From contig JAUQQP010000031.1 of NCBI GenBank assembly GCA_030549855.1, forward strand, positions 1-64,000: a stretch of DNA of 64,000 nucleotides, in the 5' to 3' direction. The notes beneath the pieces were generated by a model. The model saw only the letters and a program-made list of their open reading frames with translations, was not told the origin of the DNA and did not search any database. Each line of letters begins with the position of its first letter. Position 1 is the stretch's first letter. Positions 59,433 through 64,000 of the stretch are shown piece after piece. The stretch comes from Cyanobacteriota bacterium SRBZ.bins.94.201705 (GTDB lineage Bacteria; Cyanobacteriota; Cyanobacteriia; Cyanobacteriales; Cyanobacteriaceae). Both the position numbers and the translations under genes were made by a program.

Positions 59433-60497
59433 ATGGCAACACTAGAAAGAATGCCGGGGAAAATGCCCCTCACCCCCATTTTTAATCCCAATGGCGACGA
59501 TCGCATCGAAAATAGGAAAATTTGGTTTGGTAACACTACCAATTTAATGCAGCTGAATGATGTGCGCTACGGTTGGGCTATAGGATTATATCAACAAATG
59601 CGGGAAAATTTCTGGATTCCCCAGAAACTAGATATTACCCAGGATGTTACAGATTACTGGAATTTGACAAAGGATGAACGTCGGGCTTATGAGGGAATCT
59701 TGTCTTATTTGACTTTCTTGGATTCTATACAAACTTGCAATATTCCTCACCTAAAAAGTTCAATTACAGCCCCAGAAGTTAGCCTCTGTATGGCTGAACA
59801 AATCTCCCAGGAGGGAATGCATAATCACGCCTATCAGTATATAATTGAAACAGTTATTCCTAGTGAAAAAAGGGACAAAGTCTATGACTTTTGGCGCACA
59901 GATAAAGTCCTCGCCCAAAGATGTGAATTCATAGCAGGGATGTATCAAAAATACCTGGATGATCCTACCCCAGAAAATTATTTTATCGCCCTGGTGGCTG
60001 ATTATTTATTGGAGGGATTATACTTCTACAATGGCTTTATTTTCTTCTACAATTTGGCGGCTAGAATGTTAATGCCGGGCAGTGCCGATATTTTTAGAAT
60101 GATTAATAGGGATGAATTGTCCCATGTGCGGTTGTACCAGCGGCTAATCCCTGAGGCAATGCAGGTTTTCCCCCATTCTAAGGAACAAATCTACGAAATG
60201 TTTGACCAGGCTGTAAAACATGAATGCCGCTGGACTAATCATATAATTGGCAATAACATTTTGGGAATAACCGATACCAGTACGGAGCGTTATACTAAAT
60301 ATCTTGCTAATATTAGATTGAAGGCTATTGGACTGGAACCGATTTATTCGGGAGAAGAATACCAGAAAAGTCCTTATACCCATCTGGAAAAATTCTCCGA
60401 CACCAAAAAGGACGGTAACACTAAGGCCAATTTCTTTGAGGCAAGCGTTACCAGTTATGTAATGTCTTCGGGAGTTACCGGTTGGGAGGAAATTTAA
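59433..60497 (+). CDS. nrdB: Class I ribonucleotide reductase beta subunit
   Basis: A di-iron radical subunit for dNTP synthesis. All ligands can be placed: Asp97, Glu127, His130, Glu194, Glu228 and His231, and the radical tyrosine is Tyr134 in GMHNHAYQY, so this is a Tyr-radical rather than the Phe-bearing class Ic type. No nrdA is adjacent, so the alpha subunit is encoded elsewhere. The DUF39 gene follows 22 bp later and could be co-transcribed. Confidence 0.95.
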   Translation: MATLERMPGKMPLTPIFNPNGDDRIENRKIWFGNTTNLMQLNDVRYGWAIGLYQQMRENFWIPQKLDITQDVTDYWNLTKDERRAYEGILSYLTFLDSIQTCNIPHLKSSITAPEVSLCMAEQISQEGMHNHAYQYIIETVIPSEKRDKVYDFWRTDKVLAQRCEFIAGMYQKYLDDPTPENYFIALVADYLLEGLYFYNGFIFFYNLAARMLMPGSADIFRMINRDELSHVRLYQRLIPEAMQVFPHSKEQIYEMFDQAVKHECRWTNHIIGNNILGITDTSTERYTKYLANIRLKAIGLEPIYSGEEYQKSPYTHLEKFSDTKKDGNTKANFFEASVTSYVMSSGVTGWEEI

Positions 60498-60519
60498 CCT
60501 GCAAGTATAAGTTGTTCTT

Positions 60520-61740
60520 ATGGCGGAAAGGAAGAGAACGATCCCCGAAATCAATGACAAGATCCTCCAGGGCAAGGTAAGGGTTTGGACTGTAGAAGAA
60601 TTGAAGAACAATGTGAAGAAATTGGGTATAAGGGAAACTTATGAACAGGTGGATGTGATCTGTACCGGCACCTTTGAGCCTATGGAGTCGTCGGGGGCGT
60701 TTCTCAACCTGGGGCACACTGACCCTCCTATTAAAATCCGCCAGTGTTGGTTGGATGGAGTGCCCGCCTATGCCGGCTTGGGGGCAGTAGATTTGTATCT
60801 GGGGGCTACCGCTGTGTCTGAGTTGGGGGAGGGGGAGAATAGTGGCCCCTTGTCTTTTCCCCCCAAACCTCCCCATCATCCATCCCCCGTGGAAAGAGGC
60901 GGTGGACATGTCATTGAAAGCCTAATAGCGGGGGAGTCAGTCACCGTCAAGGCTATTGGCCACGTTACCGACTGTTACCCCCGTGCCACTTTTGAGGGGG
61001 TCATCACCAAGGAGACAATCAATCAGTTTTACTTATACAACCCTAGGAATTTATATCAAAATTTTATCGTGGGCGTGAATGGGGGAGACCGCACTCTCTA
61101 CACCTATTTAGGCCCCTTGTTACCCCGTCTGGGAAATGCTGTCTATGCCTGTGCTGGCGCCTTATCCCCCCTGTTAAATGACCCCTATCTGGAAGTGGTG
61201 GGCATCGGTAGCAAGGTTTTCTTGGGGGGGGCAGAGGGAATGATTGTCTGGGAAGGCACGCAACATTTCCCCTCCCAGAAGCGAAGTCCTAATGGGACTC
61301 CTATTGGCCCAGGTGCTACTGTGGCTTTGATAGGGGATGCCAAAAAGATGAGCAGACAGTGGGTAAGGGGATGTTATTTCAAAAATTATGGTCCGTCTTT
61401 GATGCTGGGAGTTGGTATACCCCTGCCAGTGTTAAATGAAAAGGTTATCGAATACTGTGCCGTGGAAGACAAGGATATTCTCGCCCCTGTGGTGGACTTT
61501 TCCATCCCCCGGCGGGTGCGCCCTAGTTTTGGTTTGGTTAGCTATGCCCAGTTGAAACAGGGGAAAATCAAAATCGAGGGACAAATAGTCCGCGTCGCAC
61601 CCCTTGCTAGTCTCTATCTTTCCCGTCAGGTGGCAGAAACCCTCAAACAATTGATTCTACAGGGTCAATTCCTCCTTACTGAACCCATTGCACCCCTGCC
61701 CAAAGAAAGGACTTTTATTTCCCAAGATGGCGTTATTTAG
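60520..61740 (+). CDS. Homocysteine biosynthesis protein (DUF39/HcyS-like)
   Basis: COG1900 family. Archaeal members convert aspartate semialdehyde to homocysteine with a sulfur donor. Family motifs are clear: VICTGTFEPMESSGAFLNLG, HTDPPIKIRQCWLDGVPAYA, GHVTDCYPRATFEGVITKE and FLGGAEGMIVWEGTQHFPSQ. Residues about 99-126 are a Pro/His-rich insertion (GPLSFPPKPPHHPSPVERGG). Where I remember methanogen proteins having Cys in the GTF-PM-SSG motif, this one has Glu; the Cys in TDCYPR is kept. No NIL-ferredoxin partner gene is adjacent. The start has a weak ribosome site. Confidence 0.85.
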   Translation: MAERKRTIPEINDKILQGKVRVWTVEELKNNVKKLGIRETYEQVDVICTGTFEPMESSGAFLNLGHTDPPIKIRQCWLDGVPAYAGLGAVDLYLGATAVSELGEGENSGPLSFPPKPPHHPSPVERGGGHVIESLIAGESVTVKAIGHVTDCYPRATFEGVITKETINQFYLYNPRNLYQNFIVGVNGGDRTLYTYLGPLLPRLGNAVYACAGALSPLLNDPYLEVVGIGSKVFLGGAEGMIVWEGTQHFPSQKRSPNGTPIGPGATVALIGDAKKMSRQWVRGCYFKNYGPSLMLGVGIPLPVLNEKVIEYCAVEDKDILAPVVDFSIPRRVRPSFGLVSYAQLKQGKIKIEGQIVRVAPLASLYLSRQVAETLKQLILQGQFLLTEPIAPLPKERTFISQDGVI

Positions 61741-61752
61741 GGGGCCAAATAA

Positions 61753-62490
61753 ATGTTACAAACTGTTTCCCCTTACCAGTGTCGGTGTTATCATTGGGTA
61801 AACTGCTCCTACATAAGGGGTGAAAAAGTTGCCACCTTTCTGGCTGATGATACTCAGATGCAACCCCCTCGTCCTTGTGTTATCAAGGAATTTGAACCCT
61901 CTCCCCGGGATGAGTCACAAACTGCTCCCATTTTATTACAAAAGCCCCCCGTAGAACTACTCAACCTGAAAAGTCTGGGGTTGCATCCACAAATACCTGT
62001 CCATGATTACTTTTTTTGGGATAACAAATTCTACCTGGTGCGGGAATATGTGGGGGGGGAAAGCCTAGCAGAAAGGGTACAACAACGAGGGCCATTGTCG
62101 GAGATTGAGGTTAAGGTTATTCTACCACAGCTGTTAGAGGTTTTGGAATATGTCCACAGTAAAAATATCATCCACGGGAATATAAACCCAGAGAATATTA
62201 TCCTCAGAAGTACGCGCGACATACCCGTCTTGGTTGACTTTGGCGGTTTTAGGGAAGCCTTTGGGTTGGCCATAAGAGACACCACCGATTATATGCCTCC
62301 TGAACAATTGGCGGGTAGGCCAGTTTTTGCTGGTGATGTCTACTCCCTGGGTTTGACGATAATTTATGCCCTCACCGGCACAACCCCCTCACAGTCTCCC
62401 TTCCCTGTGACGGAGAAAATGTGGTGGGGTGTTTCCATTAGTCCCAATTTGAGGGAGGTGGGCGTTTCCGTGACGCCACTGAGATGCTAA
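61753..62490 (+). CDS. N-terminal part of a frameshifted Ser/Thr kinase-like protein
   Basis: A kinase fold with the ATP lysine (CVIKEF, Lys45), DFG (162-164) and DVYSLGLTIIYALTGTTP. There is no glycine loop, and the catalytic loop reads HGNINPEN at 141-148 instead of HRDxKPEN, so both catalytic Asp and Lys are Asn. It should be inactive. The frame ends NLREVGVSVTPLRC, out of phase; in the other frame the DNA reads GRFRDATEML, the normal kinase end. A single extra G in the G-run at 62458-62463 would restore fusion with the next ORF. Probably a pseudogene, or a sequencing error. Confidence 0.75.
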   Translation: MLQTVSPYQCRCYHWVNCSYIRGEKVATFLADDTQMQPPRPCVIKEFEPSPRDESQTAPILLQKPPVELLNLKSLGLHPQIPVHDYFFWDNKFYLVREYVGGESLAERVQQRGPLSEIEVKVILPQLLEVLEYVHSKNIIHGNINPENIILRSTRDIPVLVDFGGFREAFGLAIRDTTDYMPPEQLAGRPVFAGDVYSLGLTIIYALTGTTPSQSPFPVTEKMWWGVSISPNLREVGVSVTPLRC

Positions 62491-63236
62491 GAAGTTGGCA
62501 AAATTCTCAAATTCCCCCCGTCTCCCCTCCGCCAACACAGACACTCTATACTGGCACCAGCCATGTGGGTTTTTCTCCTTCCCCCTCGGCAGTGACTCAA
62601 ATGTCTGGGAGAAGTGACAGTTTTCCACCTATGCTACAACCCAGTGGAGACCATGACGAGGGTGAGGTACTCTCTTTTCTGGCTGCCCTGAGTAATCCTA
62701 TTTTACCAATTACTTTTCTTTTGTTCCTTATGGCTTTCGGGAGTTTGGGGTATGTTATTTCTCGGCAAGCAATTTTAAATCGGGCGGAAATTGCCCAACA
62801 AGGGGGTGGGGAAAAAGTTGAGTCTACAACAAAAAAGCCAGAAATGACAGAAGCCAGCAACACGGCCGATTTTGCCTCTACCCCCAGTCAAGAGTCGGTG
62901 TCAGAGAGTATTGATGTTAATTCGGCTATTAGTTTAATTGAAGACCTATATTATTTTCTATCAGAAAAAGACTTCGACAGTGCTAGACAATTGTATGCCC
63001 CACAGCTGTCTGCTACATTCAGCGATGAATTTTTTAGCCAGTTTGCAAGGGTTACAGTGGAAAATCTGAGAATAGTCTCCCAAACTCCCGTTTCCATCAA
63101 TTTTGTAGGTTATAACACTTATGTTTACCCTGATGGCTCCACCCAAAGGGAGGAAAGGAGTTACACTGTGAGGAAGGTTGATGGAAATTTAAAAATTACT
63201 GCCTCCGAATTTATTAGGGTGATTAAATTTAGATAA
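62484..63236 (+). CDS. C-terminal part of the frameshifted kinase: TM plus paralogous C-terminal domain
   Basis: Its frame, open from 62442, begins with the expected kinase tail GRFRDATEMLRSW. Then come a Pro/Ser-rich linker, one membrane helix (NPILPITFLLFLMAFGSLGY, about 71-90 from ATG 62484) and a roughly 100-residue external domain with FFSQFARVTVENLRIV and TYVYPDGSTQREERSY. The same domain ends the convergent gene at 63403. Without a frame repair this half would need its own start, and no ribosome site is visible at ATG 62484. Confidence 0.7.
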   Translation: MLRSWQNSQIPPVSPPPTQTLYTGTSHVGFSPSPSAVTQMSGRSDSFPPMLQPSGDHDEGEVLSFLAALSNPILPITFLLFLMAFGSLGYVISRQAILNRAEIAQQGGGEKVESTTKKPEMTEASNTADFASTPSQESVSESIDVNSAISLIEDLYYFLSEKDFDSARQLYAPQLSATFSDEFFSQFARVTVENLRIVSQTPVSINFVGYNTYVYPDGSTQREERSYTVRKVDGNLKITASEFIRVIKFR

Positions 63237-63402
63237 TCAGCAATGTTTCCGTTTTTTCCCCTCACATTTCCCGGGCTTTTCTGTGAATAAATACAATCAA
63301 CAATCATTACCGCTTTACCCGCGGGGGACGGGAAAACGCTGGCTCTCCCCCCTTTTTTGAACATTCTCACGGAAACCTGACTTAAATATTCATACACTTG
63401 TG

Positions 63403-64000
63403 TTACTTCCTCGGTTCTAGGACTCGGCGGAATCGGGAATTGACAATTTTGGGCACCCCGTCAATAATCTTCATGGTGAAGTCCCTTTCTTCTATTTGTT
63501 TAGTCCCATCCGGATAGTAGTAAGTATTTGTACCTATAAGGGTGATGGTGTCGCTTCCCTCGTAAACCACCCTCAGGTTGTCCACCGTCACCCGGGAGAA
63601 GCGTTGGAAAAATCCTGGATCTAAATTGTTGGGATTGGCAAAGAATACCTTAGCCTGGGGAAATTGTTTTTGGGACACTAGATTGTAGAATTGCACCAGT
63701 GCCTCCATTGCCTGAGGTGGGGCAATGACACTGGTATTGACAGTAACGTTGGGATTGGTGTTGGTATTGGGGTTAGTATTGGAGTTAGTGGAGGGGTTGG
63801 CGTTGTTGTTGTTGGAGGTGTTGGAGTTGTTGGGCGTGGAGGAGGCATTGTCGCTGGGGGGGTTTTCCTCAGGGGTATTGGCATCGGTGGGGTTGTCAGT
63901 GGGAAGAGTTTCTTGATTCTCCTCGGAAACCTCTGGTGGTGAGGGAGACGTAGGACTGTTATTCTCCTGGGCGGGAGGGGTGGGTTGTACCACTGTCGTC
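63403..64000 (-). CDS. Partial gene with Asn/Thr-rich linker and the same C-terminal domain
   Basis: The frame is open to the window edge, so the N-terminus is missing; the GTG at 63993 is an internal codon. A low-complexity Pro/Glu/Asn/Thr linker precedes a domain with FFQRFSRVTVDNLRVVYEGS and NTYYYPDGTKQIEERDFTMK. This is clearly paralogous to the end of the neighbouring kinase-like protein, so I infer that the missing part is also a kinase plus membrane helix. It cannot be confirmed from this window. Confidence 0.75.
   Translation of the reverse strand, partial: TTVVQPTPPAQENNSPTSPSPPEVSEENQETLPTDNPTDANTPEENPPSDNASSTPNNSNTSNNNNANPSTNSNTNPNTNTNPNVTVNTSVIAPPQAMEALVQFYNLVSQKQFPQAKVFFANPNNLDPGFFQRFSRVTVDNLRVVYEGSDTITLIGTNTYYYPDGTKQIEERDFTMKIIDGVPKIVNSRFRRVLEPRK
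63730..63846 (-). repeat. Low-complexity Asn/Thr/Pro-coding repeat tract
   Basis: Imperfect short repeats (plus strand mostly GTTGGTGTTGG-like) encode an NTNPNTN-type linker inside the partial gene. Such tracts are prone to slippage and to assembly error. Confidence 0.7.

Follow-up and report, generated by a model that had tools for sequence, protein, structure and literature searches.

The locus near the end of the window (the whole 64,000-nucleotide stretch analyzed) raised the question of how a kinase gene came to lie in two reading frames with its catalytic residues gone, and whether it still works. An initial annotation had offered a decaying receptor kinase or pseudokinase, programmed frameshifting, or an indel error. 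The analysis favored the first: at a probability of about two in three, this was a receptor-type kinase gene that became a pseudokinase while translated, was cut by a 31-nt deletion, and is now most likely a young pseudogene.

Features are listed in Table 1. The upstream gene, on the same strand, ends 12 nt ahead of ORF1. The frames of ORF1 and ORF2 differ by -1, both are open across 62442-62490, and the ORF2 ATG overlaps the ORF1 stop by 7 nt (ATGCTAA). ORF2 reads RFRDATEML, followed by a linker rich in proline and serine, a single hydrophobic helix and the C-terminal domain, with zero stops and zero frame breaks in the 250 codons past the cut; the annotation had seen that ORF1 ends out of phase and that another frame continues from RFRDATEML into a TM helix and an outer domain, all of which was confirmed. 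Both ORFs belong to a close same-strand gene row (59433-63236), which may be co-transcribed; promoter and terminator scans at the locus returned chance-level hits only. The tail-to-tail paralogue (63403-65430) is a single ORF of 675 aa with HRDIKPEN, a TM helix and the same NTF2-like domain, 40% identical to that of ORF2. A proline-rich insert (about GPLSFPPKPPHHPSPVERGGG) occurs in the 406-aa upstream protein and, in variant form, in that of the sister species; elsewhere in the family the homologues of this protein measure 389-395 aa.

Table 1. Positions in the window of the features discussed, with the basis or remark for each.
Feature	Position	Strand	Basis or remark
Upstream gene, 406 aa, weakly like methanogenesis marker 16 proteins	60520..61740	+	anchors synteny with sister species
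ORF1 (245 aa), predicted pseudokinase domain ending short of the kinase C-lobe end	61753..62490	+	alignment to 80 homologues
Beta-3 lysine K45 (CVIK), kept	61885..61887	+	alignment
Alpha-C glutamate E68, kept	61954..61956	+	alignment
Catalytic loop HGNINPEN; Arg, catalytic Asp and Lys replaced, Asn148 kept	62173..62196	+	
DFG (kept) and shortened activation loop	62236..62292	+	alignment
Putative deletion scar, GTG (V236) - GG - CGT (R of RFRDATEML)	62458..62465	+	2 nt remain vs 33
ORF2 (250 aa): remaining kinase C-terminus, linker, TM helix, NTF2-like domain	62484..63236	+	
Predicted TM helix ILPITFLLFLMAFGSLGYVI	62700..62759	+	hydropathy maximum 2.06
Extracytoplasmic NTF2-like domain, <=60% identity to those of active homologues	62913..63233	+	pLDDT 94
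Intact active paralogue, C-terminal part	63403..64000	-	tail-to-tail; gene reaches contig position 65430

Catalytic residues and pseudokinase class

The Pfam Pkinase model (PF00069) matched ORF1 residues 42-214 (E 1.4e-24, 87.4 bits vs a gathering score of 31.7). This match and the alignment bore out the earlier description of ORF1 as a kinase fold with HGNINPEN, lacking the catalytic Asp and Lys. The HRD Asp is replaced by Asn, conservation in homologues is 1.0 at the R142, D143 and K145 positions, and the window protein is the outlier among complete homologues. Beyond that description, the glycine-rich loop GxGxxG is absent (SYIRGEKVATF stands there) and the activation loop has 16 residues vs 27 in most homologues, 11 being gone. 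A glycine loop concealed in another frame was ruled out, the motif being absent from the 88 nt between the upstream stop and the first alignable kinase residues. The alignment showed the alpha-F Asp to be kept as well, and VDFG occupies residues 161-164. An AlphaFold model of ORF1, built on a two-row alignment, reached pLDDT 45 and is uninformative.

In a 2025 review of bacterial pseudokinase families (PMC12599244), a pseudokinase is defined by loss of the beta-3 Lys, the HRD Asp or the DFG Asp. ORF1, with its HRD Asp lost, falls under this definition and is classed, from its sequence, as a Ser/Thr pseudokinase of the Hanks-type fold. Of the families described there (EssB/YukC, ActPs1-3, GLW, CP1, DLHK), none of those compared here fits the window gene. 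EssB/YukC and ActPs3 resemble it in their degraded motifs, short activation loop and TM segment (PMC12599244), whereas the window gene differs from the reviewed families in its own origin within a cyanobacterial kinase subfamily, its kept beta-3 Lys and DFG, and its broken frame. CP1 pseudokinases have no TM segment and are linked to a COG3899 domain (PMC12599244); membership was ruled out, as a TM helix and an NTF2-like domain come after the kinase here.

HGN loops are not mentioned in the main text of that review (PMC12599244). A scan of 389 genomes placed loops of the HGN[IL][NK]P[ED]N type at 33 sites, spread over 31 of the genomes, and a reversed-pattern control gave 0. The HGN-loop loci read (L126-L130 and L132-L145, in other genomes of the order) were full-length ORFs of 484-653 aa, partnered with WD40, pentapeptide, TPR or other parts. 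Such kinases (e.g. L133, L143/L048) are Hanks-type with HRD changed to HGN, like the window gene, but they are full-length with other C-terminal parts, and the window gene resembles HRD kinases more closely than it does these. Since some HGN kinases likewise lie closer to HRD kinases than to one another, the change from HRD to HGN, as judged by sequence similarity, seems to have arisen repeatedly in cyanobacterial kinases. An HGNINPEN gene in another genome of the family (L132) was rejected as an orthologue, being a different kinase.

The junction between the two frames

For the alignment, the ORF1 and ORF2 halves were joined by X and compared with 80 homologous kinases, drawn from the same genome and from others of its order. 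From the V236 column to the Arg of RFRDATEML there were exactly 11 residues (33 nt) in 80/80 homologues, distant paralogues included. As 2 nt stand here in place of 33, the alignment points to a single 31-nt deletion (ten codons and one base) in subdomain XI, by which ten residues were taken out and the frame was shifted. The annotation had proposed that one added G would rejoin the frames and, separately, that about a dozen residues of subdomain XI were missing. One base would indeed restore the phase, the frames being -1 apart, but ten residues would still be absent; residues are gone as described, ten by the alignment, yet their loss is not separate from the frameshift, as a 31-nt deletion makes the two the same event. 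One missing G as the entire lesion was thus ruled out.

With 31 nt absent and longer homopolymers (G8, T7) read in frame, the one-base sequencing error that the annotation had allowed explains the locus poorly. A wider artefact of assembly or sequencing was also weighed, in which the cell would possess the 31 nt and encode one intact pseudokinase-TM-NTF2 protein. The genome is a single assembly of 51 contigs and both ORFs are otherwise open, which leaves room for such an artefact. Against this, 31 nt is atypical for a base-calling error, the G8 (62052), T7 (62011) and C6 runs of the same gene are all in frame, and no broken frame was found at the genome's other kinase matches, the remaining Pkinase matches lying in frames without internal stops. 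An artefact was therefore judged distinctly unlikely. The G8 run (62052-62059, inside ORF1) might slip as in phase-variable genes.

Programmed -1 frameshifting, which would fuse ORF1 and ORF2 into one protein, agrees with frames that are -1 apart and share an open overlap (62442-62490). However, an X-XXY-YYZ heptamer is absent from the overlap, no homologue had a frame break at that point, and the fused product would still be without the ten residues found in 80/80 homologues. The chance of this alternative, one of those offered by the annotation, was put as very remote.

The closest cyanobacterial precedent is spkA (sll1574/sll1575) of Synechocystis sp. PCC 6803, whose GT substrains carry a 1-bp insertion that splits the gene (PMC4632739, PMC10068330). 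In both cases a cyanobacterial Ser/Thr kinase gene lies in two ORFs by a frame-breaking indel. The spkA lesion is a 1-bp insertion in laboratory substrains, whereas here it is a putative 31-nt deletion in a gene whose catalytic residues would already have been lost.

Homologues and the sister species

Homologues were termed active where the catalytic residues were present by sequence. The closest kinase domain to ORF1 was that of an active kinase (51% identity), and the closest outer domains (53-60% identity) came from active STK-TM proteins in a different family within the order. The ORF2 TM helix and NTF2-like domain match cyanobacterial STK-TM-NTF2-like receptor kinases, but the ORF here is interrupted. 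Active kinases of this kind in related cyanobacteria (the L011 neighbour, L050-L059, L090-L098) share with the window gene a kinase domain, one TM helix and the same outer domain (40-60% identity); in contrast to it, each is encoded by one ORF and has both the HRD and the glycine loop, with an activation loop mostly of 27 residues. All STK-TM-NTF2 homologues examined were single ORFs carrying HRDIKP[ED]N or a motif close to it. The alignment with cyanobacterial kinase-TM relatives that the annotation had called for thus returned intact single HRD ORFs, which argues for disruption here: the gene has a frame-breaking lesion where its homologues are intact, as a pseudogene does. A pseudokinase orthologue with the same losses was not found among relatives in the searches run, the best matches being HRD kinases. 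Viral contigs searched gave no match, and genome contigs searched gave one distant kinase, retrieved via the HGNINPEN pattern itself.

The predicted structure of the outer domain was similar to the NTF2-like folds of RsgI9, the CaMKII hub and PBP2a. In two genomes of the family (L061, L065) a TM protein of another, CHAT-like kind ends in the same domain, so it appears to be a shared outer module and not kinase-specific.

For the sister species, one other genome of the genus was compared. The nrdB-like and 406-aa genes lie there in the same order, the 406-aa proteins being 97% identical. Directly after the 406-aa gene stands ATGTTACAAACTGT..., about 62 nt of the pseudokinase gene at 74% identity (score 50, where 500 shuffles reached 30 at most), preceded by an AGGAGG motif and closed by a stop after 20 codons. 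An unrelated gene follows, which sits elsewhere in the window's genome. The common ancestor probably had the gene, and each lineage then broke it in its own way. As the sister copy is almost entirely gone, what is seen is most likely the ongoing loss of an ordinary gene. The synteny break between the two species falls exactly at the pseudokinase gene (61741-63402). In the sister species the genes from upstream are found on a different contig from the active neighbour kinase, with other flanks (G001:C18 (L113), G001:C6 (L047)).

Against a pseudogene, ORF2 is open and its ATG overlaps the ORF1 stop, so that an ORF2 product could still be made. The locus might accordingly be a split gene that still works, with a soluble pseudokinase (ORF1) and a membrane-anchored NTF2-like protein (ORF2, by coupled re-initiation at ATGCTAA) either working independently or serving as decoys to the active paralogue. 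The 7-nt overlap, the closely spaced same-strand row (59433-63236) and the fully open ORF2 with its conserved outer domain are consistent with this. But with ten kinase C-lobe residues gone neither half is a complete kinase fold, no Shine-Dalgarno motif was found ahead of ORF2, no split homologue (two genes, or a frame break at that point) was found among the homologues examined, the sister species lost the gene, and the open ORF2 is explained equally well by a recent cut. A working split was considered unlikely. Its more specific form, termination-reinitiation on one mRNA with both products modulating the active paralogue via the matching NTF2-like domains, was given little credence.

Probable order of loss and its meaning

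Sites were taken as conserved when they were the same in >=80% of homologues. In the N-lobe, catalytic loop and activation loop 30/69 conserved sites were changed, compared with 6/40 in the hinge, alpha-E and C-lobe scaffold (Fisher p 0.003 vs the catalytic parts) and 2/29 in the NTF2-like domain (p 0.004 vs the whole kinase). The kinase-domain end branch measured 2.22 vs a median of 0.24 in a quick tree, where the long branch makes the placement of the window gene uncertain; in the NTF2-like domain tree the end branch was 0.35. In neutral simulations a 235-codon frame stayed stop-free in 3-11% of runs at 80% identity and in <=1% at <=70%, so that an open frame of this length would seldom survive neutral drift to the divergence seen here. 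As judged from these site counts, change this uneven is unlike that of untranslated DNA and the loss of constraint is selective. Selective change together with an open frame indicates that catalysis was probably lost first, while the protein was still translated, and that the cut came later; this order is relative and carries no date.

The preferred reading, gene decay, would then begin from a receptor-type Hanks Ser/Thr kinase with a cytoplasmic kinase domain, one TM helix and an outer NTF2-like domain. At a pseudokinase stage, still translated, it would have been without the glycine loop, the HRD Arg and Asp, the catalytic-loop Lys and 11 activation-loop residues, and would have kept the beta-3 Lys, alpha-C Glu, loop Asn, DFG, C-lobe scaffold and outer domain. 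The product of that stage was probably a phosphotransfer-free membrane scaffold or regulator, possibly of the active tail-to-tail paralogue. The later 31-nt deletion would have left the pseudokinase with neither membrane anchor nor outer domain, and the gene here is now most likely a young pseudogene; in the sister species a stub of ~62 nt is left. The lost catalytic residues, the 31-nt deletion, the sister relic and the intact active homologues elsewhere all support the annotation's suggestion of a decaying receptor kinase or pseudokinase; the former role as a membrane regulator and the present lack of function are both probable.

Stages of "pseudokinase" and "pseudogene" could thus be told apart within one gene. 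They suggest a probable order in which a bacterial receptor kinase is lost: catalysis first, under kept constraint on the scaffold and outer domain, the frame later, and in the sister species nearly nothing remaining. Perhaps more widely useful is the side observation that intact cyanobacterial kinases recurrently show HGN in place of HRD.
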